From a virus: 44,264 nt of DNA. How positions within the stretch are numbered: position 1 is the stretch's first letter; each line of letters opens with the position of its first letter. Made by a program: the position numbers and the translations under genes. This document shows, piece after piece, positions 26,987-44,264 of this stretch. The stretch covers positions 1 to 44,264 of the IMG/VR virus record IMGVR_UViG_3300045968_000057, one strand, 5' to 3'. The notes under the pieces were generated by a model. It was not told the origin of the DNA, made no database searches, and was given only the letters and a program-made list of their open reading frames with translations.

Positions 26987-27015
26987 TTGTCACTTGGGAG
27001 AATTTGTCGTATATT
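26987..27015 (+). promoter_or_regulatory. Sigma70-type promoter of the plus-strand island
   Basis: TTGTCA (26987-26992) and TATATT (27010-27015) are separated by exactly 17 bp. The ATG of the HNH gene is only 9 bases beyond the -10 hexamer, so the transcript would start at or next to the start codon (leaderless), unless a downstream start is used. The local AT-rich patch contrasts with GC-rich surroundings. Confidence 0.6.
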
Positions 27016-27024
27016 TTTGGCGGG

Positions 27025-28026: not shown

Positions 28027-28027
28027 T

Positions 28028-28093: not shown

Positions 28094-28104
28094 TTGAGCG
28101 CCTA

Positions 28105-30505: not shown

Positions 30506-30698
30506 CCGGCCCCATTGTATGCCATGTTGACGCGATATTCCAAAGGCGGCATAGATACTCAGCGACTTCAAGCCGTTGGATGTGGTGGACGAGCACCAGT
30601 TTCGGGGTCTGGAGTTGGTACGGCCCGCCGAGGCCCATGTGGACGATTTGGGCGGGGCCACTGGGAACGAGATGCTTGAGTTGGTCGAGGGTTCTCAT
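30369..30698 (-). CDS. Hypothetical protein overlapping the portal start
   Basis: The ATG at 30698 overlaps the upstream stop. The 109-residue product begins Met-Arg-Thr-Leu-Asp-Gln-Leu-Lys-His-Leu and includes 'PYQLQTPKLVLVHHIQRLEV'. It overlaps the portal frame by 137 bases in another frame, a long overlap for this genome. Either it is a real separate protein, or a frameshift (programmed or sequencing error) joins its first 60 residues to the portal frame. Its first ten codons are duplicated at 30892-30921. Confidence 0.45.
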   Translation of the reverse strand: MRTLDQLKHLVPSGPAQIVHMGLGGPYQLQTPKLVLVHHIQRLEVAEYLCRLWNIASTWHTMGPDDSAGGSGRQELDISKYDPGVPTVAGPEAGILPAAPTTRAPRKRR

Positions 30699-30871
30699 AG
30701 AAACTCCACCTCGATATCGCTATCTGGCGTGAAGTCGTGCGGCCCGCTATGTCCACTCTCTAGCATGCAAGTGCCCGATGGCTTGCCCATCGCCTCAGCC
30801 CATTCCTCGGAACCGAACTCCAGATCATCCATGTTTCCGGCCCAGCAATGTAGCACGCGCTTTCCGCTCAT
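30695..30871 (-). CDS. Small protein with Gly-His-x-Gly-Pro-His motif (58 aa)
   Basis: The ATG at 30871 overlaps the stop of the tiny upstream frame and its own TGA overlaps the next ATG. The acidic 58-residue product has 'CMLESGHSGPHDF', the short Cys/His motif also found in the 27730-28026 protein, probably metal-binding. No further function is recognised. Confidence 0.5.
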   Translation of the reverse strand: MSGKRVLHCWAGNMDDLEFGSEEWAEAMGKPSGTCMLESGHSGPHDFTPDSDIEVEFL

Positions 30872-30921
30872 GCTTCCCTCCTCGCCTGCGCCAGATGCTT
30901 GAGTTGGTCGAGGGTTCTCAT
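30868..30921 (-). CDS. 17-codon mosaic frame
   Basis: This frame starts like the 30369-30698 gene (ten identical residues) and ends like the 31022-31504 gene (Ala-Gln-Ala-Arg-Arg-Glu-Ala). It has ATGA overlaps on both sides. It looks like a recombination remnant, the fused start and end of two neighbours, rather than a functional protein, although it may couple translation. Confidence 0.35.
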   Translation of the reverse strand: MRTLDQLKHLAQARREA

Positions 30922-31022
30922 TGCGGTTTTACCCAGCCGAACCCGATAGCCCAAAAAAGCAAGCCCGCTACGGTAAAGAATCCAGCGAAGAAAAACGCCA
31001 TAAGTCGCCACAACTCCATCAT
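30918..31022 (-). CDS. Small single-span membrane protein (34 aa)
   Basis: The ATG at 31022 overlaps the upstream TAA (TAATG); a second ATG follows immediately. The 34-residue product is one transmembrane helix rich in Phe, Trp and Gly ('FFFAGFFTVAGLLFWAIGFG') with a short charged tail. No family is recognised. Small membrane peptides are frequent in this genome (see 34230-34426, 40064-40192 and 43818-43916). Confidence 0.5.
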   Translation of the reverse strand: MMELWRLMAFFFAGFFTVAGLLFWAIGFGWVKPQ

Positions 31023-31504
31023 TACGCTTCCCTCCTCGCCTGTGCGATCTCATCCGGCGACGGCTTCCAACGCCTGACTTCCCCGGTCGGCACCCGCACC
31101 GCGCCCGCGCTCTTGATTCCCGCGAGCCCGGCGTCCGTAATCCCCGACGTCGGCCGCGCCGCCCCGGCCGGCCCCAGTGGCGGCATGGCAAGCCCGGTCG
31201 CTCGCGCTACCGCACCCGAGAGCCCGCCTGGTCCGTTCGGGTCCACGGCCAGCATCGGGCTCCGGCGATTGGCCTCCTTCGCCCGGTCTTTCTGCTGCCG
31301 CTTCTCCGTGTAGACCGGCTCCACGAACGCATCCGAGCGCTTGGCGATCCCGCGCGAGATGTTGGGCGGGCTGAACAACCGGATAATCTTTTTCGTCCCG
31401 CACACGGGGCACCGCGTCGCATTCACGGGGAGGTCGTAGACCGTGGCCCCCTTCGCGGTCTTGCACGTCTTGGAGTTGCAGGCGAAGTCAGCGTGGGGTT
31501 TCAT
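31022..31504 (-). CDS. Zinc-ribbon phage protein
   Basis: The 160-residue product has 'DFACNSKTCKTAKG' and, about 18 residues later, 'TRCPVCGTKKIIRLF', four cysteines in the FmdB-like zinc-ribbon spacing found in many phage proteins near terminase genes. The rest is Pro/Gly/Ala-rich and probably disordered. The start overlaps the end of a 36-codon frame. Function of the family is unknown; nucleic-acid contact is likely. Confidence 0.65.
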   Translation of the reverse strand: MKPHADFACNSKTCKTAKGATVYDLPVNATRCPVCGTKKIIRLFSPPNISRGIAKRSDAFVEPVYTEKRQQKDRAKEANRRSPMLAVDPNGPGGLSGAVARATGLAMPPLGPAGAARPTSGITDAGLAGIKSAGAVRVPTGEVRRWKPSPDEIAQARREA

Positions 31505-31611
31505 AGCTTGCTACACCCTTGGGAGTTGAACACACCAGCTTTCGCCAATGTGAACTTGGCGGGGCGCCCGGCCAATATCCTGACGTGGGGGTGTAGCAAG
31601 GTGGATATCAT
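31501..31611 (-). CDS. Possible 36-aa peptide after terL
   Basis: An ATG overlaps the terL stop (ATGA) and the TGA overlaps the ATG of the zinc-ribbon gene, so the frame fills the gap exactly. The peptide is basic with no recognised family. The same bases form a strong three-way-junction RNA (31507-31600), so the frame may be incidental to a structured RNA, or both may be used. Confidence 0.4.
   Translation of the reverse strand: MISTLLHPHVRILAGRPAKFTLAKAGVFNSQGCSKL
31507..31600 (-). ncRNA. Predicted structured RNA between terL and zinc-ribbon gene
   Basis: On the minus strand CTTGCTACACCC (from 31600) pairs perfectly over 12 bp with GGGTGTAGCAAG (to 31507). Inside lie a 5-bp hairpin TTGGC/GCCAA and a 9-bp hairpin (CACATTGGC with GCTGGTGTG, including G-U pairs) closed by a GAAA tetraloop. 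An alternative hairpin CGCCAA/TTGGCG could replace these two. The outer stem ends three bases before the next ATG, so folding would affect its translation. No known class was recognised. Confidence 0.4.
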
Positions 31612-33422
31612 ATCCCTCTCCCTGTCCTCATCACGCGGCCGATGAAGTTTCCCGCGAGCACCGAGAGCACATTGGTCTCTTCGGGTTTCACCATCTTCGG
31701 CGCGAAGCGGCCCTGAATCTCCGGCTGGACGTTCGTGAACCAGTGCTCCACCGCCATCGCCGCCGCGAGCACCCGGCACTCCGAATACTCCCCGCCCGCG
31801 CCCGCCGTGATCACGTCCGCGTCCTGCAACTCGCCGCGCCGCATCGCCTGCAACTCGTCGATCAATTCCGGGGAGCGGATCTCCACGTGCCCGTTCTCGA
31901 GCACGTCGCGGATCTGGTTGAGCAGCCAGGGGCGGAAACTGGCCTGCGACTTCCACTCGACGGCGCGCACGCCTCGGGCGAGAGAATCCGGCCGGCGGAA
32001 GTAGTAATGGCGCACGGCGCCAATCATGTTCTGGAGGTCGTGCTTACCCTGAATCCGCTGGCCCCACCCGCGCTGCTCGAATCGCATGATCTCGTTCAGC
32101 ACGCTAAAGCCGGTCATCTCCACGTCCATCACGAAGTAGACATCTGCGAACGGGCGATTTTGTCGGTATGACCCAGCCAGATGCAAACACGCCCACGCGC
32201 ATCGCACAGTGAGATCACCTCCGGGTACAACGTATTCCGCGACCTGAACAAGTGAATCTGGATACGCTCGCCAGACCTGGACGACATCATCTGGCGCTTC
32301 AGCCGACGAGGAATACGCAGGATGACACGCGACGATGTAGACCCCTTCCGGGTCCGGTTCTTCCCAGACCGTGACGGCGCCGTCTTCTCTCGGGTCGCAC
32401 TTCTCGATTTGCGTGTCATCTAGCCATCTCCCCCATTCGTACTTGTACCCGTGCGGCTTGGGTGCCTGCGCGGCCCCGGCGCGGAGTTGGCGAATGAGCG
32501 CCGGCCGGAAGAACTTGTTGCCGAAGGATTGGAAGGCGTCCTCGGGCAGGTTCGGGTGCTCCTGCGCCATCATGGCCTCGTCGCCGTGCATGTCCTCCGC
32601 TAGCTTCCATCGGTACCAGACGAGGTATTCGGGCGGTAACTCAACTCCATAGATTTCCGCCACAGCACGGACCCAGAGTCGCTCATCATCGCTAAGTCGA
32701 TCGCTGCCGTAAATGTCCCAGACAGCGCGATTGGCGTGCTCAACGTAATTGAGACTGTGCCGCCAGGCAGGGATAAAGATACGCCGTGTAGTAGCGGAGT
32801 GCTCATGCTCCCTCCATGCGGCCCACAGGACGCCGTGGCCCTGTGCGGTTGAAGCCCAAGTGTAGAGTCGTCGCGGGTGGCGGTCGGAGCGGGAGGCCCG
32901 CAGGCCCATCACCGCCCGGGGGTCGGTCCAGGCGTCGAACTCGTCGGCGTGGAGGTAGGAGATTCCCTTGCCTCGACCGAGCTTGGTTTTCGTGCCCCTG
33001 GACTTGGTGGCGCTTTGCGACCAAAGCAGGCGCGATCCGTTCGACCAAGCCAGCATGTTGCCGTTATCGACTCGCACTGGTAGCCGAAAGGACTCATCCT
33101 GCACGCTGTAGTACATGCTTCGGATGATGTCGCGTCGGACTTCTCGGTTGTCGTCGTCATCGGCCACCATGATTCCTTGGATGCCTTCATAGCGCTGGGG
33201 CCAGTAGAGGTCCAAGGCGTCGGTGATTGTGGTCAAACCTTGCTGGCGCCCCTTCAGCACCAAGAAGTCATGCACGTCGTTCTCGAGCCCCGCCGCCACT
33301 TCCCGGAGGAAATACTTTTGTGTGGAGTACAGCGTCTTCATCCGGAAGGTGCCCGAGTGATCCTTGGCCGGGATGGCGAGGGCCGTGCAGAACTTTTCAA
33401 AGTTGGCGAGCGGGAATTTCAT
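31608..33422 (-). CDS. terL: Terminase large subunit
   Basis: The 604-residue protein is the DNA-packaging motor. Walker A is 'LKGRQQGLTT' (residues 56-65) and Walker B 'ISYLHADE' (154-161), in the N-terminal ATPase. The C-terminal RNase-H-like nuclease region follows from about residue 360 ('VYIVACHPAYSSS', then 'VYFVMDVEMTG'). Two acidic positions usual in this nuclease look altered: His367 stands where the first Asp is expected, and the last motif has Ser-Glu-Cys in place of the common Asp-Asp. The gene overlaps small genes on both sides. Length is typical. Confidence 0.85.
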   Translation of the reverse strand: MKFPLANFEKFCTALAIPAKDHSGTFRMKTLYSTQKYFLREVAAGLENDVHDFLVLKGRQQGLTTITDALDLYWPQRYEGIQGIMVADDDDNREVRRDIIRSMYYSVQDESFRLPVRVDNGNMLAWSNGSRLLWSQSATKSRGTKTKLGRGKGISYLHADEFDAWTDPRAVMGLRASRSDRHPRRLYTWASTAQGHGVLWAAWREHEHSATTRRIFIPAWRHSLNYVEHANRAVWDIYGSDRLSDDERLWVRAVAEIYGVELPPEYLVWYRWKLAEDMHGDEAMMAQEHPNLPEDAFQSFGNKFFRPALIRQLRAGAAQAPKPHGYKYEWGRWLDDTQIEKCDPREDGAVTVWEEPDPEGVYIVACHPAYSSSAEAPDDVVQVWRAYPDSLVQVAEYVVPGGDLTVRCAWACLHLAGSYRQNRPFADVYFVMDVEMTGFSVLNEIMRFEQRGWGQRIQGKHDLQNMIGAVRHYYFRRPDSLARGVRAVEWKSQASFRPWLLNQIRDVLENGHVEIRSPELIDELQAMRRGELQDADVITAGAGGEYSECRVLAAAMAVEHWFTNVQPEIQGRFAPKMVKPEETNVLSVLAGNFIGRVMRTGRGI

Positions 33423-33916
33423 CCCTTCCCCTGGCTGGCGCGGGCGATGGCGGGGGCGTGCTCGACAATCCGGCAGGCTCGACCATGAGGCGGCTCCTCA
33501 CCTTCTAACCACCGGCACCCACACCATACGCATTCTTTGGCCCCACCTAGAATCGTGCGCGGTGTGCTCAGCGCCCGGATCGCCGCCCAGGCTTCGGTGC
33601 GCTCCTGTTCATCGCGCTCAAACTGTTCACCATACTCCCGACAATTTGTTTTCCACGCCTCTAGCTCCCGCGTCCGCTCCGCGAGGGCCTGCCGTGCTTG
33701 ATCTCGCTGATCCGCCATTTCGACAGCAACGGTCGCCCGATCTTCGGCCCACTGCCTGTTGTCGTCGCGGTCCTTTGCGATCCAGATAATATCTGCGCGG
33801 AGTTTGATTATCTCGTCCTTCGCCTCCGCGAGTTCGGCTTCGAGGGCGGCGATGCGGGCAATTAACATCGCCACGCTTGGGCGCTCGGGCGTGGCGGCGA
33901 ATTCGTCTAGGATCAT
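33419..33916 (-). CDS. Coiled-coil protein with C-terminal zinc knuckle
   Basis: From the ATG at 33916, residues 18-105 form a coiled coil ('AALEAELAEAKDEIIKLRAD'). The C-terminus has 'CVWCGCRWLEGEEPPHGRAC', a Cys-x2-Cys ... His-x3-Cys zinc site. Such proteins are common just upstream of terL and may help terminase recognise DNA, but no small-terminase signature is seen. ATGA overlaps on both sides. Confidence 0.6.
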   Translation of the reverse strand: MILDEFAATPERPSVAMLIARIAALEAELAEAKDEIIKLRADIIWIAKDRDDNRQWAEDRATVAVEMADQRDQARQALAERTRELEAWKTNCREYGEQFERDEQERTEAWAAIRALSTPRTILGGAKECVWCGCRWLEGEEPPHGRACRIVEHAPAIARASQGKG

Positions 33917-34233
33917 CGAAACATCTCCTTTTGCATCTCCGTCATCCCCGCCGCGTCGTCCCATCGGTCGCCGCCGAGGTCCTGACGCCCGCTCAACCGC
34001 TTCGCCTCCGGGTCCTGGTCAAACTGCAACCACAACCACGCCATGCGCTTCGCCCAGTCGGAGACCACCACGCGCCCCGGCCGGGAAGTCGCACGCCACC
34101 ACGCGGCGAGTTGGTCCTTCGTGATGCACTTATACCCCTCCCGGTGCCTCGGATTGACCGGCGTGCACGTACACGCGGGCTTTTCCTGCTTCCAGACCTT
34201 CCGCTCGCGGGCTTCGCGCTCGGATTCGGTCAT
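33913..34233 (-). CDS. Hypothetical protein (106 aa)
   Basis: The ATG at 34233 overlaps the upstream stop. The product is charged and Trp-rich ('LAAWWRATSRPGRVVVSDWA', 'KRMAWLWLQFDQDPEAKRLS'), with a short Cys-Thr-Cys segment near the start. It has the size of a small terminase subunit and lies two genes before terL, but no helix-turn-helix is clear. Confidence 0.55.
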   Translation of the reverse strand: MTESEREARERKVWKQEKPACTCTPVNPRHREGYKCITKDQLAAWWRATSRPGRVVVSDWAKRMAWLWLQFDQDPEAKRLSGRQDLGGDRWDDAAGMTEMQKEMFR

Positions 34234-34337
34234 CTGAAGCCCCTCCACAGCGCTACCAAGAAACACGCGATAAAGATTACGAAGCCAGTGACGAAGAGAG
34301 TTAGCCCGATCTTGATCATGATGTGATCGGGGCTCAT
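34230..34337 (-). CDS. Small single-span membrane protein (35 aa)
   Basis: The ATG at 34337 (Met-Ser-Pro-Asp-His) gives a 35-residue protein with one helix of about 20 hydrophobic residues ('IGLTLFVTGFVIFIACFLVA') and a basic tail. It overlaps both neighbours by four bases. No family is recognised. Confidence 0.5.
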   Translation of the reverse strand: MSPDHIMIKIGLTLFVTGFVIFIACFLVALWRGFR

Positions 34338-34426
34338 CGCCGCACCAGGTACGACCACAGGAGCGCCCACCGATTGCTCGGCCGACCGTAGACCGCGAGC
34401 GCGATGTAGACCGAGGGGATGATCAT
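34334..34426 (-). CDS. Mini-protein (30 aa)
   Basis: ATGA overlaps on both sides define a 30-codon frame beginning Met-Ile-Ile-Pro-Ser-Val. It is weakly hydrophobic with a basic Arg-Arg end. No family is recognised. Support comes from tiling. Confidence 0.4.
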   Translation of the reverse strand: MIIPSVYIALAVYGRPSNRWALLWSYLVRR

Positions 34427-35181
34427 CACGACGCCTCCGCGAGCAGGTCCTGAATGATCGCCAGGTCCACCGTAGACCAGTCCGCATCCGCCGTCGCCAG
34501 GAGCTTCGACAGCCCGCGCTTTACGAGGATCATGTGGACCTGCGACCGCGTGAGTTCCAACTCCCGCCACCGATCCTGCAGCCGCTTGACGAGCGCCGCC
34601 CGCTCATCCTTCTCCTTGAACGAGGCATTGGCTTCATGCGTCATCGCATCCCCGACCTCGGGCGTCATCTCGACCACCTTCGCCTCATCCTTATACATCC
34701 TGACGACCCGCTGCTTGATATCCTCGGGGATGAGGTTCAGGATCGCGTTCCGCATGGCCTTGCTGCCACCCTGCTCGAACCAAAACGGATTCGCCTCCAA
34801 CTCCCCGTTGCGCCGCGTGATGAATTTCGGCTGGCGCTTGAGCTCGACGACGGTATCGAGCCGCTTCTCTTCCTTGTTCTCGCGGATGACCCACCGGGAC
34901 GCGAACGCCTTGAAGTAGGCCGTCTCCGCATCCTCCTTCATGAGCACGATGTCATCCTCGCGGATCACTTCGCCGGTCTTCGCCAACTCCCGCTTGCACG
35001 CTTCGGCCCCGTCCACGCCGAGGCCGTAGATCATCTGGCCGGACTGCTTGAAGGCGTAGACGTACTCGCGCAGGATGGCCCCGCGCGTTAGGCGGTTGGC
35101 GATCGCCGCGTCATCGGCGCGGTCGAACAGCATCAGGGTTTCCGGGTACGGCTTGACCTGTGGTACAGTTGGCTCGTTCAT
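34426..35181 (-). CDS. Hypothetical conserved phage protein, possibly recombination-related
   Basis: The start at 35181 has a very strong GAGGAGGAGG ribosome binding site. The 251-residue product has 'GLGVDGAEACKRELAKTGEV', a central beta region, then 'GGSKAMRNAILNLIPEDIKQ', resembling the 'SKAQRNAI..LIP' helix of phage proteins linked to single-strand annealing and repair. The C-terminal 60 residues are helical. The likeness is suggestive only; no annealing motif is certain. A stem-loop lies in its leader. Confidence 0.5.
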   Translation of the reverse strand: MNEPTVPQVKPYPETLMLFDRADDAAIANRLTRGAILREYVYAFKQSGQMIYGLGVDGAEACKRELAKTGEVIREDDIVLMKEDAETAYFKAFASRWVIRENKEEKRLDTVVELKRQPKFITRRNGELEANPFWFEQGGSKAMRNAILNLIPEDIKQRVVRMYKDEAKVVEMTPEVGDAMTHEANASFKEKDERAALVKRLQDRWRELELTRSQVHMILVKRGLSKLLATADADWSTVDLAIIQDLLAEAS

Positions 35182-35198
35182 GGTCGTCCTCCTCCTCG

Positions 35199-35223
35199 GG
35201 CGCCCGGCTCGTCACCGGGCGCC
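35199..35223. promoter_or_regulatory. 9-bp perfect stem-loop in the leader of the 34426-35181 gene
   Basis: GGCGCCCGG (35199-35207) and CCGGGCGCC (35215-35223) flank a 7-base loop. On the minus strand the stem ends directly before the GAGGAGGAGG ribosome binding site, so it could attenuate or protect the message. It lacks a T-tract on that strand; on the plus strand TTCGTTATTT follows. Confidence 0.5.
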
Positions 35224-35234
35224 TTCGTTATTTA

Positions 35235-35675
35235 CTAGACCGCTCGTATTCCGAGTGTCCGATGGTAGGCGCGCGGCGTGCTGCGCCGACTCTTCGCGGC
35301 CCTGTTCTTCTTCCCGGCGCCGCCCTGATGCCGACCGACCCTGTGCGCTGGGTCTACGGGGCGCAAGTGGTATTCGCCGGGCCGGAAATCCCCGTGGCGA
35401 TCGAATGACACTATCTCGCGATAGATAGACTGCGGAACTCTGTAGCGCGTCGCGGTCCTGCCCCGTACAAAGTACGCCACGGACGGACGGATCACGGCGC
35501 CGTCGAGCGCAAATGCGCGCGTACACGCCCGCGCCATAGCGCAGTTGTCTGGGGCCTTTTTCTTTGACCCCCTGAGATCTGATGTGGCCACGGTTACCCT
35601 AACCCGCCGCTGGCCATCCACAACCCTCCGCACTTTCGGATAAAACCTCTGAACCTGATCGAGTACCGTCTTCAT
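35235..35675 (-). CDS. Basic conserved phage hypothetical protein
   Basis: From the ATG at 35675, behind GAGGAGGAGCG, the 146-residue product contains 'RVTVATSDLRGSKKKAPDNC', 'AMARACTRAFALDGAVI' and 'REIVSFDRHGDFRPGEYHLR', segments I recall from small phage hypothetical proteins of unknown role. The last 35 residues are strongly basic. The domain is probably a small alpha/beta unit; a nucleic-acid role is possible. Confidence 0.6.
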   Translation of the reverse strand: MKTVLDQVQRFYPKVRRVVDGQRRVRVTVATSDLRGSKKKAPDNCAMARACTRAFALDGAVIRPSVAYFVRGRTATRYRVPQSIYREIVSFDRHGDFRPGEYHLRPVDPAHRVGRHQGGAGKKNRAAKSRRSTPRAYHRTLGIRAV

Positions 35676-36325
35676 TCGCTCCTCCTCTTTGTGTGAACTG
35701 CTCGCATCACCCGCGACACCGGCTTCAGATACCACGGCAACTGTTCCGGCAGGTGACGCAACACGTACTTCCGCTCCACGAAATGCGCCCGGTAGATGTA
35801 GCGCACGCCCCGCCGCACGTTCTGTGACCCGTGCTCGCGGGATGGGTCGAACAGCAGGACCGTGCCCATCTTCCCCGGCACCGTGGTCCCGTCGTAGATC
35901 AGCGGGGCCTGATCGGCGTCGCAGGCCTCGAGGTACACGTACACCTTCAGCGCCCGGCAGTTGTCGAAGTCATCCACGTGGAGCGGGAACAGGGGCTCGG
36001 CCGTTACGCCCGAGTAGTCCCAAATGTACTGATTGATGCCCCAGCCCCGGCCGAGGAAGTCATCGGCGATGTGGGCGACGCGCTCGACCACGCCCGTTGC
36101 CGTCGCGAGGCTGTTCCACGCCTTGGCGCGATCGACGCGGCTCGGCGTGATATTGATGCGCCAGCCGCTCTCGGTCTCGTGGACCCGGGCGTAGTCGGCG
36201 TTACGGAGCTTCTGGCCCGTGACGCGGAGGTCGTGGCACACGAGCGGGGAGAGGCGTTCCCCGAGCATCATGATGCCATAATGGCGCAGGCCATAGGTCG
36301 TGTCGAAGTCGGACATGTCGGCCAT
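35672..36325 (-). CDS. 2-oxoglutarate/Fe(II) dioxygenase-like protein
   Basis: The 217-residue product has 'FPLHVDDFDN' (His-x-Asp iron motif), a jelly-roll strand set ('ALKVYVYLEACDADQAPLIY'), and 'LFDPSREHGSQNVRRGVRYI' supplying the distal His and the Arg that would bind 2-oxoglutarate. This His-x-Asp...His...Arg order is that of PhyH/2OG-Fe(II) oxygenases. Substrate is unknown; phage members act on nucleotides, DNA bases or small molecules. It lies in the early part of the leftward operon with ATGA-type overlaps. Confidence 0.6.
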   Translation of the reverse strand: MADMSDFDTTYGLRHYGIMMLGERLSPLVCHDLRVTGQKLRNADYARVHETESGWRINITPSRVDRAKAWNSLATATGVVERVAHIADDFLGRGWGINQYIWDYSGVTAEPLFPLHVDDFDNCRALKVYVYLEACDADQAPLIYDGTTVPGKMGTVLLFDPSREHGSQNVRRGVRYIYRAHFVERKYVLRHLPEQLPWYLKPVSRVMRAVHTKRRSE

Positions 36326-36631
36326 TTACTCCTCCACCTCCCGCACGATCGGGTGATCCTTGCGGATCGTCTCCCAGGCCAGTTGGTTGCCGAAGACAAG
36401 ATGGCACGCCGCCAAAGCCGCCCGGAGCATTTCCACATAATCGCGCACTAGAATCCGGTTGCCGCGATCATGGATCTCCCGATTTAGCGCCTCACTAAGG
36501 CGAGAAATCTCGTCACGCAGGGCGTTAGCCTCGCCGGCCGATTTCATCCCGGCGTCGCGGCCCGGGTTTTCCTTGGGCTCGCGTCCGTGTCCGGACATCT
36601 CGTCCGGCACCATACGGTCGGCGGGGGTCAT
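36326..36631 (-). CDS. Hypothetical helical protein (101 aa)
   Basis: The start overlaps the stop of the regulator gene. The product has a disordered, charged N-terminal third and a helical rest ('ANALRDEISRLSEALNREIH'). No family is recognised. It is the second gene of the leftward operon. Confidence 0.55.
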   Translation of the reverse strand: MTPADRMVPDEMSGHGREPKENPGRDAGMKSAGEANALRDEISRLSEALNREIHDRGNRILVRDYVEMLRAALAACHLVFGNQLAWETIRKDHPIVREVEE

Positions 36632-36828
36632 GCCAGCACCCGCTCTAGCTCTGCCCAGACCTTTTCTCGGATATCTTCGGCCACGCGAGGGTCCCGCGCA
36701 ATGACCCTGGTAAAGGTAGACTGGCTGGTGCCGACCTTGGCCGCCACGTCGATACCCCTCACGCGGCGGGCCTTCATCAGGGTCACTATCGCATAGCGCG
36801 GCTTGTGGCGTATCTTCATGGACCCCAT
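36628..36828 (-). CDS. Small helix-turn-helix regulator
   Basis: The 66-residue product (ATG at 36828, or 36819) has 'GIDVAAKVGTSQSTFTRVIA', a helix-turn-helix with the usual Ala...Gly-x-Ser pattern, then a charged helix. It is the first gene leftward of the divergent control region, exactly where a phage switch regulator lies. It may bind the 85-bp region between the operons or the paired palindromes at 304-340. It could be an excisionase- or Cro-like protein; lysogeny genes are not seen. Confidence 0.65.
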   Translation of the reverse strand: MGSMKIRHKPRYAIVTLMKARRVRGIDVAAKVGTSQSTFTRVIARDPRVAEDIREKVWAELERVLA

Positions 36829-36863
36829 GATGCCACGCGTAAAATTAAATTGCAAGAAAATTA

Positions 36864-36892
36864 TTGACACGCCATCTCCGTTGTGGGATACT
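36864..36892 (+). promoter_or_regulatory. Strong sigma70-type promoter of the rightward operon
   Basis: TTGACA (36864-36869, perfect -35) and GATACT (36887-36892) are 17 bp apart. An AAGGAGG ribosome binding site follows at 36900-36906, seven bases before the ATG at 36914. The leftward regulator gene starts 36 bp upstream of the -35, so the region is compact. No equally good leftward promoter was found. Confidence 0.75.
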
Positions 36893-36913
36893 CTGGGTCA
36901 AGGAGGATCGGAT

Positions 36914-37100
36914 ATGACGACGGACAGGGACAAGGTAGTCGAGGTCAGGACGTACATTCACACGGCCGACATCACCTTCCTCAATGACGACGAGGCGGGC
37001 GCATCGGTCTACGTGCGAGGCGTGGATCGCTGCGGGTGGGAGTTCTCGGGCTTCATGGACCGCGCGGCCCTCGCCCCGATCCTGTTCCCGGAGGGAAACA

Positions 37101-37108
<8 letters not shown>
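36914..37108 (+). CDS. First gene of the rightward operon, hypothetical
   Basis: Placed right after the promoter and AAGGAGG, this 64-residue acidic protein has a small beta-like fold ('KVVEVRTYIHTADITFLNDD', 'SVYVRGVDRCGWEFSGFMDR'). As the first early gene under a strong promoter it may act on the host, as many such small phage proteins do; nothing more specific is visible. It overlaps the next gene by 8 bases. Confidence 0.65.
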
Positions 37109-37822
<714 letters not shown>

Positions 37823-37826
<4 letters not shown>

Positions 37827-39184
37827 CCTTCGACTTCCGCGACCTGTTCATCTTCGAGATGGCGAACAACCACCAGGGCAGCGTGGAGCACGGGAAGAGG
37901 ATCATTCAGGAGATGGCCCGGATCGCCAAAGAGAAGGGCATCCGGGCGGCGGTCAAGTTGCAGTTCCGGGACCTCGACACCTTCGTTCACTCCGTGCCGC
38001 CGAGTAAGCACATCAAGCGATTCCTCGAGACGCGGCTCTCGTGGGATGAGTTCGCCGTGCTCGTCGAGGAGATCCGGAAGAATGACCTTATCACGATGTG
38101 CACGCCGTTCGATGAGGCGTCGGTGGACAAGATTGTGGAGATGGGCATTGAGGTCATCAAGGTCGGCTCGCCGTCCAACAAGGACTGGCCGCTGATTGAG
38201 AAGGTGGCGAAGGCCGGAAAGCCCGTCATCTTCTCCACGGGTGGCCTCACCATGCGGGAGATCGACGACGTGTCGCGTTTCCTCGACTGGGCCAACGTCC
38301 ACCATGCCATCATGCACTGCGTCTCCATCTATCCGACGCCCGCCGAGCACTTCCAGTTGCACCAGATTGGTGCATTGTGCCGACGCTACCCGGACAAGGT
38401 GATCGGGTTCTCGTCGCATGAGGGGAGGTGGCAGCATTCGCCCATTGGCATCGCTTACGCGCAAGGCGCCCGGATCTTTGAGCGCCATGTTGGCATAGAC
38501 ACAACGATGTCCGTCGACCCCAACCCCATATCCCTGAACGCCTACTCTGCGGGGCCGGGTTATGTCGAGCAGTGGATCAGGGATTATCAGAGCGCCCGGA
38601 CCCTCTGCGGCGCCACCGAGCGGCCCGAGTCCCCACCCGAGGAGCAAGCCGCGCTCCAGGAGTTGAGGCGGATTCAGCCTCCGACGCCACGCGATCCCGT
38701 CCAGGAGATCATCTCCCAAGCCGTCTATACCGTCCGGACGATGCTGGCCGAGGCGAAGATCGCGCCCCCGCCCGACTTCAAGTTGGAGCTCTCACACCAT
38801 CACGGGCTCGTGCGCTTCCCCTACGTGGGCGCCACCATCATCAACGTGGTCAACCGGGAGTACTGCAAGAAGTTGATCGTGTTGACGCCAGGGCAGGGGC
38901 ACCCGCGGCACTACCACAACAAGAAGGAGGAGACATTCCAGATCCTCTCTGGGGCTCTAAATGTCACCCTAGATGGTGGCATGCAGACGCTGTGGCCGGG
39001 GGATACCGTAGTTATCAAGCCGGGCGTATGGCACTCATTTACGGCCACTCACATCATGGGCGCCATCATCGAGGAGATCTCCACGACGCACCACAACGAC
39101 GACTCCTTTTACTCCGATCCGCTCATCACGGCACTGAAGCGGGAGGAGCGGAAGACTATCGTGGAGGGGTGGGGAGGGCACTGA
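37823..39184 (+). CDS. neuB: NeuB-family nonulosonic acid synthase fused to a C-terminal cupin
   Basis: The ATG at 37823 overlaps the upstream stop (ATGA), giving 453 residues. Residues 1-265 match NeuB/sialic acid synthases: 'FEMANNHQGS' (catalytic Glu and metal-region Asn-His), 'MCTPFDEASVDKI', 'VIKVGSPSNKD', 'KPVIFSTGGLTMREID', 'HCVSIYPTPAEHFQLHQIG', 'IGFSSHEG' and 'FERHVGID'. These enzymes join phosphoenolpyruvate to an N-acyl-hexosamine. Residues about 350-440 are a cupin: 'HPRHYHNKKEETFQILSGAL', 'PGDTVVIKPGVWHSF'. The usual C-terminal SAF domain is absent. Upstream of the NeuA-like gene; together they would make an activated nonulosonic acid. Confidence 0.8.
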
Positions 39185-39372
39185 TGGGGTGGGCGGTCTG
39201 TGATTGCAGGGCGGATTGGGGAGACTTTCTCCACATACGCCATTTACTGATTAATGAGTGGCTTAATGAGGGAAAGTCGCCGGAGTACATCGCTGAGGTC
39301 TTGTCTATGGACCCCGTGCAGGTTCAACTGATCGGAAGGACCCCGGTGGGTGATACATGCTGGCAGGCATGA
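39184..39372 (+). CDS. Small hypothetical protein (62 aa)
   Basis: It overlaps the NeuB stop by one base and the NeuA start by 16. The product has two Cys near the start and 'NEWLNEGKSPEYIAEVLSMD', a short helix-turn-helix-like segment. A partner of the sugar enzymes or a regulator is possible; no family is recognised. Confidence 0.55.
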   Translation: MGWAVCDCRADWGDFLHIRHLLINEWLNEGKSPEYIAEVLSMDPVQVQLIGRTPVGDTCWQA

Positions 39373-40067
39373 GGGTCCTCGTCGTCGTCCCGGCCCGAGG
39401 CGGGAGCAAGGGCATCCCGCTGAAGAATATCTACCCAGTCTGTGGGCGCCCGCTCATCGCCTATACCGCCGATGTGGTGAAAGCCCTCCCGTGGGTCGAT
39501 ATGGCGATCTGCTCGACGGATCACCCGGAGATCATGAAGATAGCCCACCAGGAGGGCCTGCGCGTCCCATTTCGCCGCCCAGACGACCTCGGGGGCGATT
39601 TCATCAGCGACCTCCAGGTCTTGACCCACGTGCTGCACTCGGTGGACGAGGGGGCCTATGACGTGGTGGTCATGCTGCAGCCCACGTGCCCCCTACGGAA
39701 GCCCAGGCATGTGACGTGGGCGGTCCATCGGCTCATCGCGGGCGGATATGACTCGGTGTGGACGGTATCGCGCACGCCAATGAAATATCATCCGCTCAAG
39801 CAGTTATGGGTCACGACTACTGGGCAGTTGGGGTATTGGGACCGTATCGAGGGGCCGCGCATCATCGCCCGACAGCAACTTGATGAATACGGAGTCCACT
39901 ACCGCAACGGGGCCGCCTACGCCTTCACGCGGGAGTGCCTGCTGGATCAGAAGACCATCATGGGCAAGAATGCCGGGGCGGTGCTCATCCAGGACGACCC
40001 GCTCGTCAACATCGACACGCTCGAGGACATCGCCGAGGTGGAGAGGATCATGAGGGGAAAGCCATGA
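39357..40067 (+). CDS. neuA: CMP-nonulosonic acid (CMP-NeuAc-type) cytidylyltransferase
   Basis: The 236-residue protein has the nucleotide-binding loop 'VVVPARGGSKGIPLKNI' (residues 8-24), then 'GRPLIAYTADVVKAL', 'ICSTDHPEIMKIA', 'VVVMLQPTCPLRKPRHV' and 'VWTVSRTPMKYHPLK', the motif order of NeuA/KpsU/PseF-type enzymes that activate sialic or related acids with CTP. The second Met (residue 5) could be the start. 'NIDTLEDIAEVE' near the end is also typical. It follows the NeuB-like gene with a small gene between, so the product of one is likely the substrate of the other. Confidence 0.85.
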   Translation: MLAGMRVLVVVPARGGSKGIPLKNIYPVCGRPLIAYTADVVKALPWVDMAICSTDHPEIMKIAHQEGLRVPFRRPDDLGGDFISDLQVLTHVLHSVDEGAYDVVVMLQPTCPLRKPRHVTWAVHRLIAGGYDSVWTVSRTPMKYHPLKQLWVTTTGQLGYWDRIEGPRIIARQQLDEYGVHYRNGAAYAFTRECLLDQKTIMGKNAGAVLIQDDPLVNIDTLEDIAEVERIMRGKP

Positions 40068-40192
40068 TGACGCTGTTCTGGGTCGGGCTCTCAATGGCAG
40101 CCGGGTTCCTCTTGGGGTTCTTCATCGGCATCATGCTCGTGTTCGGGGCGGATGAGCGGCCGGGGTGCAATCGGCTGAAGGCGGACCCATGA
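40064..40192 (+). CDS. Small membrane protein (42 aa)
   Basis: ATGA overlaps both neighbours. The product has one hydrophobic helix ('GLSMAAGFLLGFFIGIMLVF') followed by a short polar cytoplasmic or periplasmic tail. No family is recognised. It could anchor or assist the sugar enzymes encoded upstream, but that is speculation. Confidence 0.5.
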   Translation: MMTLFWVGLSMAAGFLLGFFIGIMLVFGADERPGCNRLKADP

Positions 40193-40371
40193 CCCTCGAT
40201 GACGCTGCGAGTCACCGGCAGCATGCGGCGGATCTGGGGGATAGTCTTGATGATGTTCCGCTACATCCTTGGATTCAGCGTGGCACCTTTTACGCGATTG
40301 GCATGCTTATCAACGAGGTCAACTATCTGCGGGCTGAGTTGAAGCGACTAGAGGCCCAAATACGGCCATGA
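40189..40371 (+). CDS. Small hypothetical helical protein (60 aa)
   Basis: ATGA overlaps define the 60-residue frame. The C-terminal half is an amphipathic helix ('LINEVNYLRAELKRLEAQIR'), perhaps a short coiled coil for dimerisation. No family is recognised. Confidence 0.5.
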   Translation: MTLDDAASHRQHAADLGDSLDDVPLHPWIQRGTFYAIGMLINEVNYLRAELKRLEAQIRP

Positions 40372-40562
40372 TCGAGTGCCCGCACTGCCGACGCCCCGCC
40401 CATGACAAGTCCACCTTCCCCACCATCCGGGGCGTCCGCTGTGAGCGATGTGCGGTCTTGGAGTTCACAAAGTACCTTGTCGATCAGCTTGGGGGTCATT
40501 ATGGGCGGACCACGCAAGTACGGCACGACCGGCCTTTTCCCGTCCCATCGCCGAACCCGTAA
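40368..40562 (+). CDS. Zinc-finger mini-protein (64 aa)
   Basis: The product begins 'MIECPHCRRPAHDK' and continues to 'RCERCAVLEFTK', two Cys-x2-Cys knuckles 20 residues apart, a typical small zinc ribbon. The C-terminal 20 residues overlap the next gene in another frame, a longer overlap than elsewhere in the operon, so either this end or the next start may be misplaced. Confidence 0.55.
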   Translation: MIECPHCRRPAHDKSTFPTIRGVRCERCAVLEFTKYLVDQLGGHYGRTTQVRHDRPFPVPSPNP

Positions 40563-40860
40563 GCCCAAGGATCGCACTGCGACTACGCTGAAGGAGGCCC
40601 GAGCCGAGATTGGCATGATCGGCCCCGTGAATCACCATGATGGGGGCTCGTGCTGCTCCGCCTGTCGCCGATATCTTGACGAGCGGTATCGCCAAAGTTG
40701 CCAAGATCCTACGCGGCAGCATATTCTTGCGGGGTGCTGCGAATGGTGCGGGCGACTGCCGCTGGACATGGAGCTCATCCAGTATGGGACCATTGCCACG
40801 GCTCGAGCGCACCCAGAGATCTTGCAGGACTTCGCGCCAGCGATGGAAGATGTCTCGTAA
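40501..40860 (+). CDS. Cys-rich zinc-binding protein
   Basis: The 119-residue product has a basic N-terminus ('HRRTRKPKDRTATTLKEARA') and a zinc-like core 'GGSCCSACRRYLDERYRQSC' followed by 'ILAGCCEWCGRLPLD', several Cys-x2-Cys pairs in a treble-clef or HNH-like spacing, without the catalytic His pair. A start at the Met at 40617 is also possible and would avoid the overlap with the preceding gene. DNA or RNA contact is likely. Confidence 0.5.
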   Translation: MGGPRKYGTTGLFPSHRRTRKPKDRTATTLKEARAEIGMIGPVNHHDGGSCCSACRRYLDERYRQSCQDPTRQHILAGCCEWCGRLPLDMELIQYGTIATARAHPEILQDFAPAMEDVS

Positions 40861-41248
40861 GGGCTGGAAGGCAATCGAGAGGTCCGCTGCAGGCATTATG
40901 GGCGGAACACGTTTCCCGGCTAACACTGGCGGCAGACTAGACTTTGGTCTCAAGGAGGACGGAACATGGACCGACGTCGTAGGCCAGGTCAAGAACGTGT
41001 CACGAATCTCGCTGGCGCAGATCGAACGGCTAGCGATCGAGTGCGAGCGGATAGCCGATTCAAGAGGCCGACTTGGAGTGGTGATCATCAAGCGCAGCGC
41101 GGGAAAAGGAACGCAGACGCCGCATTTGGTCGTGTTGACGGAGACTTCCTGGAGGTCGTTCCTGGCCTCCCGACCGACGAGCAGCTCAACGCCGCCGTCA
41201 AGGCCGCCGGGTTTACCCGGTGCTTCCTCAAGGAGTACAAGTGAGTAA
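40850..41248 (+). CDS. PDDEXK-type / Holliday-junction-resolvase-like nuclease
   Basis: From the ATG at 40850 the 132-residue product begins 'SRKGWKAIERSAAGIMGGTR', resembling the 'GK.fErevA..lGG.R.' start of phage resolvase-like nucleases. It continues 'GRLDFGLKEDGTWTDVVGQV' and Lys-Asn, giving an Asp...Gln-x-Lys catalytic pattern, then 'LGVVIIKRSAGKG' and 'HLVVLTETSWRSFLA'. This is the layout of small PDDEXK enzymes; Gln in place of the common Glu is tolerated in some. Probably trims branched DNA before packaging. Confidence 0.6.
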   Translation: MSRKGWKAIERSAAGIMGGTRFPANTGGRLDFGLKEDGTWTDVVGQVKNVSRISLAQIERLAIECERIADSRGRLGVVIIKRSAGKGTQTPHLVVLTETSWRSFLASRPTSSSTPPSRPPGLPGASSRSTSE

Positions 41249-41591
41249 CATCTATATCGCTGGTCCGATGCGCGGCATACCATTCTTCAACTTCCCGGCC
41301 TTCCATGACGCTGCCAAGAAGTTACGCGCCAACGGGCACACGGTCTTTAATCCGGCCGAACGCGATGAGGCAAAGCACGGCACAGATATAGCCTCTAGTC
41401 CAGTTGGCGACTTAGCCGACGCAAACGCTAAGGGCTTTTCGCTCCGCGATGCTCTCGGAGCGGATACGGCCTGGATTTGCGCTCACGCCGATGCCATTGC
41501 GTTGCTGCCAGGCTGGGAGCACAGCAAGGGCGCGACGGCAGAGCGGGCCTTGGGCATCGCGCTAGGACTAGAAATCATATGCCTAGCCTAG
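41241..41591 (+). CDS. DUF4406 / nucleoside 2-deoxyribosyltransferase-like protein
   Basis: GTG at 41241 lies behind an AAGGAG ribosome binding site. The 116-residue product has 'IYIAGPMRGIPFFNFPAF', 'HTVFNPAERDE' and 'ICAHADAIALLPGWEHSKGA', then 'AERALGIALGLEI', the standard motifs of DUF4406, a branch of the nucleoside deoxyribosyltransferase fold. These act on nucleotides or nucleosides; the exact reaction is unknown for most phage members. An adjacent Nmad1 gene strengthens a nucleotide-metabolism context. Confidence 0.8.
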   Translation: MSNIYIAGPMRGIPFFNFPAFHDAAKKLRANGHTVFNPAERDEAKHGTDIASSPVGDLADANAKGFSLRDALGADTAWICAHADAIALLPGWEHSKGATAERALGIALGLEIICLA

Positions 41592-41914
41592 AAAGCGTCT
41601 TAGATTTCCGTCGCAAAATGTTCGAGGATTCGCTAGCGATTATCCAACGCAAAGGACATGATTATAACCGTCAACAGCAACAGGGGGGCAATACCCTATT
41701 CAACCTAACAGTGGCAGAATTGTTAGGAATAGTACCGACCGCTGAGCGCGGGATTTTGGTGCGCCTATCCGATAAATTCATGCGGCTCATTTCATTAATG
41801 GAGCCCGGCGTTGACCCCGCAGTCGCCGGCGAGTCTGTACGTGATACGGTGAAGGACATTCACAATTATGTCGATTATGCGCTTCAGTTGTGGGAAGAAC
41901 GAGAATGCTCCTAG
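41579..41914 (+). CDS. Nmad1/DUF1599-like protein
   Basis: The 111-residue product has 'IIQRKGHDYNRQQQQGGNTL', 'GILVRLSDKFMRLISLME' and 'ESVRDTVKDIHNYVDYALQL', the motif set of DUF1599, named nucleotide modification associated domain 1. These helical proteins resemble nucleotide pyrophosphohydrolases and occur near base-modification genes in phages. The gene is somewhat richer in A and T than its neighbours (many ATT, TTA and GAT codons), hinting at recent acquisition. Overlaps the preceding gene by 13 bases. Confidence 0.7.
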   Translation: MPSLESVLDFRRKMFEDSLAIIQRKGHDYNRQQQQGGNTLFNLTVAELLGIVPTAERGILVRLSDKFMRLISLMEPGVDPAVAGESVRDTVKDIHNYVDYALQLWEERECS

Positions 41915-43492
41915 ATGTTCCGCAAGGCGTACCACATACCCATACGCCCAGGGCAGCAATTCAAGCTCGTTCCTATAGGTGATATCCACTTTGACTGCGT
42001 GCATGTGGATCACAAGATCCTATGTCGCGATCTTCGATGGCGACGAGCCGGCGACCTCAAGACTGGCGATGAACTTATTGGGTTCGATGAGAAGCCATCT
42101 CCGGGCAAGAACGGCGCGAGGCATCTTCGCCCATCGGCCGTTGTATCGCACAAAATCGACACGCGGCCATGTCTCGCCGTGGAGCTTGAAACCGGCGAAA
42201 AGATCGTCACGACGCATAATCACCCGTGGCTCACGAGATATAAGGGTCTCCAGTGGCGGACCTCATCTCAGTTGCTGCCCGGTCAATGCGTGGTTCGCTC
42301 GTTTACGCCGTGGCGTGACGATCAATCATGGGAAGCGGGGTGGTTGGCTGGATTCTTTGATGGCGAGGGGTGTCTCGTTCTTGAGCGCAGCAAGCGGATT
42401 CTTACAATGCAGGCCGGACAGAATGAAGGCCCCACATATGAATTCGCGGCTCGGCTTCTAGAAGAGAAGGGCTTTAGGCATGGCCGGTACAAGCAGGCCG
42501 ACAAGTCGCGAGTATGGATACTCCGGGTGCTTGGCGGCACCGGAGAGATCTTCCGATTTCTCGGCCAGATCCGACCCGGCCGACTCATGGCTAAACTGCC
42601 GCTTGAAGAAGTACGCACTCGACGTGGCTCAACTTATGTCCGCGTTGTATCGGTCCATGACGTCGGCGATGAACCAGTCGCGGTTATGGGCACCACGACA
42701 CGGACATACTTCGCCGAAGGCTACGCGATGCATAACACTGATGAATGCGATCGCAACCGACTTCGGGACCTCATGGAGTGGATTGTTGACGAGGAGAAGC
42801 GCGGCTCGGTGGTGCGCCTCTGTGGCCTGGGGGATTACCTCGACTTTATGTCTCCGAGCAATCGGATGCGCTATTCGGCCGCCGAGCTCTACGAGACCAC
42901 GCGGCAGACGATTGAGCAGCGCGTATGGGACAATATCAAGGAGTTTGTGGAGTATGTTCCGCAATTGCGCCGCCGCACGCTTTTTATGCTCACGGGTCAT
43001 CACGTCTATAGGTTTGGCGTTCAGAAGGTGAGTGGCGCGTGGATAGGGAAGACGACGGATCAATGGGTGGCACAACAGTTAAGGGCAGATTTTGCGGGAG
43101 ATGGAGTAGCTCTCGTGCGTTTACAATTACCGCACTCTCAATACTTAGACGTGCTGGCGTATCACGGCTCTGGAGGCGCGCAAACGCCTGGTGGTCGTGT
43201 ACAGAAGCGTATGAAGTTTGCCGAGATTGCCCCAACGGCCCATATCGTCATAAGCGGCCACGACAACGCCAAACTCGCATATCCAAGGAGCGGACTTGAT
43301 TACTCTCAGGGTTCAATTAAACGATACGTTGTTGGCTCTGGATCTTTCCAGAGAGCGTACCTATCCGGGGTTGAGGCTGGATACGCAGAACGCGGAGGAA
43401 TGGTTCCGGCAGATCTTGGCGTTGTGGTCATCAACGTGTCAGTCGTTGAAAGACGCGGCCGATTCCGCGTAGACTTTCACTGCTCGGTATGA
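41915..43492 (+). CDS. Metallophosphoesterase interrupted by an intein
   Basis: The 525-residue precursor consists of an N-extein (residues 1-27), a 247-residue intein (28-274) and a C-extein (275-525). The joined host protein would read 'PIGDIHFD' followed by 'TDECDRNRLRDLM', then 'CGLGDYLDF', 'MLTGHHVYRF', 'LAYHGSGGA' and 'VISGHDNAKL', the Asp-x-His, Gly-Asp-x2-Asp, Gly-x-His and Gly-His motifs of calcineurin-like phosphoesterases. GHH replaces the usual GNH. Such phage proteins may cleave phosphodiesters or nucleotides. The host protein can only work after the intein removes itself, since the first metal motif is split. Confidence 0.8.
   Translation: MFRKAYHIPIRPGQQFKLVPIGDIHFDCVHVDHKILCRDLRWRRAGDLKTGDELIGFDEKPSPGKNGARHLRPSAVVSHKIDTRPCLAVELETGEKIVTTHNHPWLTRYKGLQWRTSSQLLPGQCVVRSFTPWRDDQSWEAGWLAGFFDGEGCLVLERSKRILTMQAGQNEGPTYEFAARLLEEKGFRHGRYKQADKSRVWILRVLGGTGEIFRFLGQIRPGRLMAKLPLEEVRTRRGSTYVRVVSVHDVGDEPVAVMGTTTRTYFAEGYAMHNTDECDRNRLRDLMEWIVDEEKRGSVVRLCGLGDYLDFMSPSNRMRYSAAELYETTRQTIEQRVWDNIKEFVEYVPQLRRRTLFMLTGHHVYRFGVQKVSGAWIGKTTDQWVAQQLRADFAGDGVALVRLQLPHSQYLDVLAYHGSGGAQTPGGRVQKRMKFAEIAPTAHIVISGHDNAKLAYPRSGLDYSQGSIKRYVVGSGSFQRAYLSGVEAGYAERGGMVPADLGVVVINVSVVERRGRFRVDFHCSV
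41996..42736 (+). mobile_element. Intein with LAGLIDADG-like segment (247 aa)
   Basis: The element begins with Cys ('CVHVDHKILCRDLRWRRAGD' then 'LKTGDELIG'), the intein block A, has 'IVTTHNHPWL' (block B Thr-x2-His), and ends 'VAVMGTTTRTYFAEGYAMHN' followed by Thr, i.e. the block F/G His-Asn end with a Thr +1 residue. A partly conserved homing endonuclease motif 'AGWLAGFFDGEGCLVLE' (LAGLIDADG-type) lies near intein residue 115. A second such motif is not evident. Insertion is directly after the Asp-x-His-x-Asp metal motif of the phosphoesterase, a typical conserved target. Confidence 0.85.
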
Positions 43493-43821
43493 GAGCCCTC
43501 TACAAGAACGTCCACAAGCTCATGCTCTACTGGTTCGCCCGCCTGATCCTCGAGACGGACTGGAATGGCGCAATGGCGTACAAGTCGGGGATGCGTGCCG
43601 AGGAGTTCCGCCACGTCAACCGATACAATTACAATCGCAGATACTGGAAGCTGCGCGAGTCGGGCTTGAGCTCGTATGAGGCTCGGGCGAAGATGGATGG
43701 GACGACGCCGGCCGTGATCAAGATGCGCTCCAATCGCTCCAATCGGCGCCAGGCTGAACGCTTGGGCGGGTATCCGAAGGTCGGGACGAGCGCGTACAAT
43801 AGATGGTTGGTGGCACGATGA
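43489..43821 (+). CDS. Hypothetical basic protein (110 aa)
   Basis: ATGA overlaps both neighbours. The product is rich in Arg, Tyr and Asn, with 'HVNRYNYNRRYWKLRESGLS' and 'VIKMRSNRSNRRQAERLGGY', and looks like a small DNA- or RNA-binding protein. No family is recognised. Confidence 0.55.
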   Translation: MRALYKNVHKLMLYWFARLILETDWNGAMAYKSGMRAEEFRHVNRYNYNRRYWKLRESGLSSYEARAKMDGTTPAVIKMRSNRSNRRQAERLGGYPKVGTSAYNRWLVAR

Positions 43822-43916
43822 GGTGGCTTAATCGCTTCGTCACGGTGTTTATAATCCTGTGTCCGCTATGCTGGCTCCCGTGTCTGGTGATGTGGCAGAC
43901 GGGCGACTGGTCGTGA
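43818..43916 (+). CDS. Small membrane protein (32 aa)
   Basis: ATGA and GTGA overlaps define a 32-residue peptide with one hydrophobic helix ('FVTVFIILCPLCWLPCLVMW') containing three Cys. It resembles the other single-span peptides of this genome. No family is recognised. Confidence 0.45.
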   Translation: MRWLNRFVTVFIILCPLCWLPCLVMWQTGDWS

Positions 43917-44143
43917 GGGAGAATAGCAGCGCTCGGCGCGCTGGTTTTGGCGTATGCGGTCATGGTCCACTTTGTACACGGGAGCGATGCCGCGCCTATC
44001 CGAAGTCGAAACAGATCAAGTTGTCGCGGCGCGACGCCGAGATATTTGTGAAGGCGCTAATCGAGAGCGAGCGCCAGGGGCGACCTCATAGTCTGTCGCG
44101 CGACTGTTGGTGTAGGCCGAAGGTAATTAAGCCATCTCTTTGA
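43913..44143 (+). CDS. Last gene of the rightward operon, Cys-containing hypothetical protein
   Basis: A GTG at 43913 overlaps the upstream TGA. The 76-residue product has 'GVCGHGPLCTRERCRAYP' at the start and 'SRDCWCRPK' near the end, a possible split zinc site around a central helix ('RRDAEIFVKALIESERQG'). Twenty-two bases after its stop the right inverted repeat begins. Confidence 0.5.
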   Translation: MRENSSARRAGFGVCGHGPLCTRERCRAYPKSKQIKLSRRDAEIFVKALIESERQGRPHSLSRDCWCRPKVIKPSL

Positions 44144-44165
44144 AAACCTACTGAGGCCAACTGAA

Positions 44166-44264
44166 ATGACCCAGCTAGGCTAACCAGAGCCCCGGGCGCA
44201 GGTAGAAGCGAACGCCTGGCCCGGGGTTGGTCAGTTAAATGAGCGCGATACCCTCCCAGGGTAT
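44166..44264. repeat. Inverted repeat, right copy (99 bp)
   Basis: This is the exact reverse complement of 353-451 and ends at the last base of the window, one base short of completing the 19-base palindrome. A perfect repeat of this length that stops exactly at the contig end often means the assembler ran out of unique sequence, so the true repeat may continue as the complement of 352-1. Confidence 0.95.
44180..44234 (+). terminator. Strong stem-loop ending the rightward operon
   Basis: This is the same stem-loop as at 383-437, in the same orientation relative to transcription: CCCCGGGC arms, CAGG/CCTG extension and a 12-base loop, starting 37 bases after the last stop codon of the rightward operon. 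No T-tract is present. Probable transcript end or 3'-protecting structure. Confidence 0.5.

Follow-up and report, generated by a model that had tools for sequence, protein, structure and literature searches.

The window analyzed here, 44,264 nucleotides of viral DNA (IMG/VR record IMGVR_UViG_3300045968_000057), carries on its plus strand at positions 37823-40067 two genes that had been predicted to encode a NeuB-cupin protein and NeuA. Both genes are real and intact, and the coordinates are right. The first (37823-39184, with an ATG at 37823 and a stop codon ending at 39184) encodes a protein of 453 residues, which Pfam, AlphaFold2 and Foldseek describe as a NeuB-type synthase fused to a D-lyxose/mannose-isomerase-type cupin and lacking a SAF domain. 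In the AlphaFold2 model (mean pLDDT 93.3), a barrel spans residues 8-262, helices residues 272-310 and a cupin residues 320-450. The boundaries of the TIM-barrel PEP-condensing domain (residues 8-262; 37844-38608) were taken from an alignment with references and 95 relatives and from the secondary structure of the model, and those of the isomerase-type domain, helix and cupin together (residues 291-453; 38693-39181), from PF07385, a profile match, a fold match and active-site mapping. The site of the missing SAF domain lies around residues 283-300 (38669-38722). The second gene (39357-40067) encodes a NeuA-type CMP-sugar synthetase of 236 residues.

The genes at this locus are tightly packed. 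The ATG of NeuB overlaps the stop codon of the preceding ORF (ATGA), the NeuB stop codon is overlapped by a small ORF of 62 codons (39184-39372, plus strand; TGATG), and the start codon of NeuA lies inside this small ORF, which had no tblastn match in the sister phage described below and is possibly a coupling ORF. Because the two genes overlap or nearly overlap their neighbors, the arrangement fits a single transcript, as proposed originally. The strong early promoter that was part of the same proposal fared less well: the sigma-70-like match TTGACA-17-GATACT upstream of the operon (36864-36892, plus strand, ∼930 nt before NeuB) is the single one found against 0.8 expected, a number at chance level. 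The ORF directly upstream of NeuB (36984-37826) is extremely rich in alanine, consists of 9- and 12-nt coding repeats and was not found in the sister phage.

Contig G001, assembled from another sample, encodes identical NeuB and NeuA (100%) as well as the capsid protein, and its alignment to positions 24620-44264 of the window contains no mismatch. A diverged sister phage (G002, locus L003) shows the same gene order, with a NeuB/NeuA pair at the same place. Identity between window and sister is 87% for the capsid protein, 79% for the terminase, 67% for a Wzy_C protein, 60% for NeuB and 64% for NeuA; the corresponding NG86 dN/dS values are 0.17, 0.13, 0.23, 0.28 and 0.19, which are rough, as dS is high (1.3-1.8) and the codon method simple. 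NeuB and NeuA are thus intact and under purifying selection, and the pair has therefore been kept by selection since the two phages split. Outside the sister, the closest homologues of NeuB come from cellular organisms, which might point to host DNA misjoined to the phage contig, but the pair is present both in G001 and in the sister, and such an origin would stand only if all three assemblies shared the same error. Recent host contamination, a concern raised with the original prediction, was accordingly rejected as extremely improbable. The terminase was absent from the four genomes of nearest cellular relatives that were searched. TerL and the capsid protein match only environmental "Bacteriophage sp." entries (32% and 48%), and TerL also Hydrogenobaculum phage 1. 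Near the two ends of the window lies an inverted repeat of 110 nt (96%; 353-462 and 44155-44264), and G001 continues past the right end of the window into the reverse complement of positions 352-4. Together these suggest inverted terminal repeats of ∼460 nt, with the last ∼350 nt missing from the window; the phage genome seems to end in such repeats, an assembly artifact being the alternative.

The synthase matches the Pfam NeuB family (PF03102) at 8.6e-39 (133.9 bits, cut-off 22.1). In the alignment with references and 95 relatives, the barrel keeps E12, K45, Q47, T94, F96, K113, S116, S138, Y170, S197, H199, E220 and H222, and the PEP- and metal-binding residues, on which the original prediction depended, are invariant. 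Among the alignable barrel residues named in the literature for Neisseria NeuB (E25, Q55, T110, F112, K129, N184, Y186, S213, H215, and E234; PMC6795526), N184 is replaced by S168; the others are kept and correspond, in order, to phage E12, Q47, T94, F96, K113, Y170, S197, H199, and E220. The closest solved relative is 3g8r (42% identity, Foldseek TMt 0.78), a Chromobacterium violaceum protein known from its structure only and titled putative "spore coat polysaccharide E," which has the FEMANNH motif in common with the phage synthase but is a chain of 350 residues without a cupin domain. Phage K45, S116, S138 and H222 align with K53, S132, S154 and H236 of the Neisseria enzyme. NeuA, in turn, matches CTP_transf_3 (PF02348) at 1.5e-15, and its family profile matches CMP-Neu5Ac synthetases over the full length (6ifd, 1e-41). 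It retains the P-loop RGGSKG..KN (R14 to N24), the LQPT.PLR motif (Q108 to R114) and the metal-binding aspartate D220.

A PEP-condensing synthase paired with a CMP-activating enzyme, as predicted, is therefore present, but its assignment to sialic or pseudaminic acid synthesis was not borne out. Against the equivalog models for N-acetylneuraminate synthase (NeuB_NnaB, TIGR03569) and pseudaminic acid synthase (PseI, TIGR03586), the phage synthase scores 109.5 and 108.9 bits, ∼3-fold below the NCBIfam cut-offs of 399.65 and 340.25, and NeuA reaches 118.3 bits against the pseudaminic acid cytidylyltransferase PseF (TIGR03584; cut-off 205.7). In the tree, a long branch with 99% SH-aLRT support sets the clade of the synthase apart from NeuC-linked NeuB and from PseI. 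Judged by sequence against NeuB and PseI references, the phage synthase is not an orthologue of either but a member of a separate clade. Compared with the NeuB/NANS sialic acid synthases (N. meningitidis NeuB, 1xuu) and PseI (8h2c), it shares the PEP condensation on a TIM barrel and the Mn and PEP residues but, at 20%-26% identity, differs in having no SAF domain, no Arg314 and an added isomerase-type cupin.

All 80 of the best cellular relatives (out of 514) have the architecture TIM barrel-SAF-cupin, with 99-103 residues between barrel and cupin, versus 50-51 in the phage and its sister; the part that is absent, ∼52 residues, is the SAF/antifreeze domain. In Neisseria NeuB, this domain caps the active site, and its Arg314 is in contact with the N-acetyl moiety of ManNAc (PMC6795526). 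An equivalent of Arg314 is present in five of five reference NeuB/PseI proteins; the 80 cellular relatives all have Met, Ile or Phe at this position, as do the viral relatives with an aligned SAF domain. The hallmark of sialic acid synthases, a C-terminal SAF domain with Arg314, is thus lacking in the phage synthase. Since Arg314 is missing family-wide, the reading of the N-acetyl group was apparently dropped by the family before the phages dropped the SAF domain. Another viral sequence (L231, 410 residues) is also without SAF, and the tree places this as a separate second loss (two changes). Among the relatives analyzed, SAF was therefore lost twice, both times in viruses and once in the present phage lineage, and the SAF-less form was seen here only in viruses. 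The loss might indicate a captured gene in decay, whose synthase is inactive or has changed its role, given that ∼52 residues common to all 80 cellular relatives are gone and that they belong to the domain capping the active site in Neisseria. Such decay is very unlikely, because the same loss is seen under purifying selection in the 60%-identical sister, SAF was lost independently in another virus lineage, the catalytic Arg of this domain had already gone in the family, the predicted fold is confident, and KDO8P synthase, a related enzyme, functions without SAF (PMC6795526).

Gene neighborhoods of the relatives also bear on function. NeuA is encoded at 54 of the 80 cellular loci, a Gfo/Idh/MocA oxidoreductase at 48, a HAD phosphatase at 35 and a DegT aminotransferase at six, all of which are lower bounds as a simple ORF finder was used on partly truncated contigs. 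In viral relatives, NeuA mostly lies close to NeuB. One of the nearest cellular relatives, from a Gemmatimonadales metagenome-assembled genome (L030), has an in-frame fusion NeuB-SAF-isomerase cupin-HAD of ∼747 residues (L030:8001-10241; HAD_2 at 49.6 bits, cut-off 23.8), directly followed by NeuA. These observations can be set against an ordinary nonulosonic acid module, in which NeuB would make sialic, legionaminic or pseudaminic acid from an amino sugar produced by the host, NeuA would activate the product and the cupin would be accessory. The NeuB fold with its PEP and metal residues, the full-length match of NeuA to CMP-NeuAc synthetases and the aminotransferases and epimerases near some relatives agree with a module of this kind; the scarcity of DegT genes, the wide shortfall from the NeuB, PseI and PseF cut-offs, the long branch of the clade, and the loss of Arg314 in the family and of SAF in the phage make it rather unlikely.

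The C-terminal half of the protein matches Cupin_2 (5e-13) and, more specifically, Lyx_isomer (PF07385), with 34.0 bits for the whole protein and 38.3 bits for the domain alone (cut-off 20.8). In a Foldseek search of the PDB, the cupin half including its helix matched the D-lyxose isomerases 7nzp and 7nzq (TMt 0.71, rmsd 1.6-1.7, 25%-26% identity over 174-179 columns; for 7nzp, 26% and 1.7 across 179 columns), with further matches to 2y0o, 3kmh and cupin phosphomannose isomerases. A profile built from 35 such cupin domains had B. subtilis D-lyxose isomerase (2y0o, 1e-17) as its best PDB match. Eight residues hold the sugar in the Thermofilum D-lyxose isomerase, K62, H75, H77, K86, E88, H143, E156 and D163, and positions equivalent to K86, E156 and D163 have been reported as essential (PMC8378251). 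Seven of the eight are kept in the phage domain, in the same order as K350, H363, H365, K368, E370, H404 and E418, including the metal ligands H75, H77, E88 and H143 (H363, H365, E370 and H404). The eighth, D163, aligns in sequence with N425, and an invariant aspartate, D427, lies two residues further on. In 34 standalone viral cupins related to the domain, K350, H404 and E418 are kept, as is D427 in 32; these four positions lay outside the pattern used for the search, whereas H363, H365, K368 and E370 were required by it and are conserved by construction. Sequence and modeled fold place the fused cupin among D-lyxose/D-mannose isomerase-type domains. It resembles the known isomerases (2y0o, 7nzo/7nzp, 3kmh) in its helix and cupin fold, metal site and catalytic Lys/Glu; those enzymes are free-standing, whereas the phage domain is fused to a synthase and leaves D163 unaligned.

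The asparagine at the D163 position and the versatility of cupins count against an isomerase, and other chemistry is possible. The domain could be an epimerase, a lyase, or a module for sugar binding or oligomerization, acting by modification or sequestration of the resulting ulosonic acid, and its standalone viral relatives do occur in glycan clusters such as that of the S-CAM1 heptose genes. We give this a low probability in view of the complete D-lyxose-isomerase metal site, the conservation of K350, K368 and E418, and the retention of residues outside the search pattern in the standalone viral homologues. The S-CAM1 relative (114114-114467; L286:6115-6468) adjoins the cyanophage heptose kinase, phosphoheptose isomerase and heptose epimerase genes and is annotated as a nucleotidyltransferase, which is probably wrong.

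In Kdo synthesis, the isomerase KdsD is followed by the PEP synthase KdsA, the phosphatase KdsC and the CMP transferase KdsB. Without the isomerase, the same series of steps leads from Man-6-P to Kdn. This scheme underlies the proposal that a compact pathway encoded by the phage pair may yield a Kdn/Kdo-type 3-deoxy-2-ulosonic acid in CMP-activated form. The synthase-cupin protein would be bifunctional: the C-terminal cupin would convert a ketose (e.g., fructose or fructose-6-P) to an aldose (e.g., mannose or mannose-6-P), and the N-terminal TIM barrel would condense the aldose with PEP. A phosphorylated product would then need a phosphatase, which a HAD gene or domain could provide in the cellular relatives and a host enzyme in the case of the phage, before NeuA activates the ulosonic acid with CTP. 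Such a bifunctional isomerase-synthase working with NeuA toward a CMP-ulosonate is, in our judgment, marginally probable. Fru-6-P to Man-6-P to Kdn-9-P would be its simplest example; the steps from Man-6-P through Kdn-9-P and Kdn to CMP-Kdn are known, and general sugar phosphatases can replace a missing Kdn-9-P phosphatase (PMC6200933). Several products other than Kdn are possible, and the Gfo/Idh gene at 48 of the 80 cellular loci suggests that the enzyme may naturally use a modified sugar and not plain mannose. If the route is right, the sugar-preparing step that seemed to be missing lies inside the synthase-cupin protein; the earlier view that an absent epimerase must be supplied by the host is doubtful, as the fused cupin is of a sugar-isomerase type.

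No phosphatase or glycosyltransferase for the sugar was recognizable in the phage. A host glycosyltransferase would presumably place the sugar on the host surface, where its most likely effect would be a change of phage receptors during lysogeny or infection. The Wzy/WaaL-like protein mentioned in the original prediction does exist, as a Wzy_C/O-antigen-ligase-like membrane protein whose gene adjoins that of the major capsid protein (23587-24807, minus strand; PF04932, 41.5 bits, cut-off 31.7). It is present in seven of the seven nearest capsid relatives searched and had no match in the named phage collection. The presence of this conserved protein, encoded beside the capsid gene, makes a change of the host surface glycan the best guess, with the Wzy_C protein as a possible partner.

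A core status of the pair in the phage group was not supported. Among 22 capsid-related contigs searched, NeuB and NeuA were found only in the sister, the other 21 including one short contig of the same phage and many fragments, and the pair therefore looks like an accessory module of this lineage. No named phage homologue was found at full length. In the tree, the synthases of the window and the sister form one group (99%) whose neighbors are sequences from Gemmatimonadota, Acidobacteriota, Verrucomicrobiota and Planctomycetota. A cluster of 13 further viral sequences lies elsewhere in the tree, which indicates that the present phage lineage acquired its gene from bacteria independently. The idea that all viral NeuB sequences form one lineage was rejected, as they are scattered among cellular ones and supported branches force at least six changes. 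More generally, a large family in bacteria, archaea and phages may fuse an isomerase cupin to a sialic-acid-type synthase and so lead from a ketose of central metabolism straight to a 3-deoxy-ulosonic acid, which with NeuA (and a phosphatase) would be a minimal route to a CMP-sugar, repeatedly taken by phages and twice trimmed of SAF. This wider statement is offered tentatively, as a serious possibility that we would stop short of calling probable.

The proposed logic has a counterpart in the Kdn-9-P synthase, phosphatase and CMP-Kdn synthetase of Bacteroides and Prymnesium (PMC6200933), likewise an aldose and PEP, a phosphatase and CMP activation with no N-acetyl group. The likeness is one of pathway logic, and those enzymes are separate proteins, not known to include an isomerase fusion. 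The Acinetobacter prophage proteins EpaA/EpaB (PMC12053666) are also phage products that change nonulosonic acid on the host capsule, but they modify finished pseudaminic acid, whereas the two enzymes described here would synthesize an ulosonic acid de novo and activate it. Phage O-acetyltransferases acting on nonulosonic acids are known too (PMC6586298). A full-text literature search, in which few subscription papers were covered, returned no paper naming both NeuB and D-lyxose isomerase, and, judged by titles and abstracts, its matches for NeuB with a cupin do not report such a fusion. The fused isomerase-synthase family is apparently undescribed, its folds and pathway logic being already known. 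If the proposed route is correct, a phage could turn common metabolites into an activated acidic sugar with a two-gene cassette, and this would account for phages that have NeuB and NeuA without the rest of the sialic acid pathway. A common family labelled only "N-acetylneuraminate synthase family" would also gain a function open to testing, and it would seem that natural enzymes can do without SAF, a domain regarded as belonging to sialic acid synthases.

Two further genes had been linked to glycan synthesis. The GNAT at 644-1228, suggested to be a PseH-type acetyltransferase, exists, but it lacks a conserved counterpart in the sister phage, and nothing tying it to the pathway was found. The ORF proposed to encode a secreted beta-helix protein (1529-3637) is also present, and its product is perhaps beta-helix-like (DUF1565 at 18.2 bits, below the cut-off of 20.3). 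By eye and hydropathy, several proteins of the structural block, encoded on the minus strand at 4328-4786, 4783-5301, 14449-15513, 20544-21098, 21387-22526 and 24807-25535, seem to begin with Sec signal peptides, which is unusual for a tailed-phage structural module. Within the minus-strand structural block lies a plus-strand SAM methyltransferase gene (28105-28683), which is absent in the sister. By eye, the product of 35672-36325 resembles a 2OG-Fe(II) dioxygenase, with no Pfam match, and its 43%-identical copy in the sister is at a different place. At 41915-43492, an intein-like insert carrying a LAGLIDADG domain splits an ORF resembling a metallophosphoesterase/DNA repair exonuclease.
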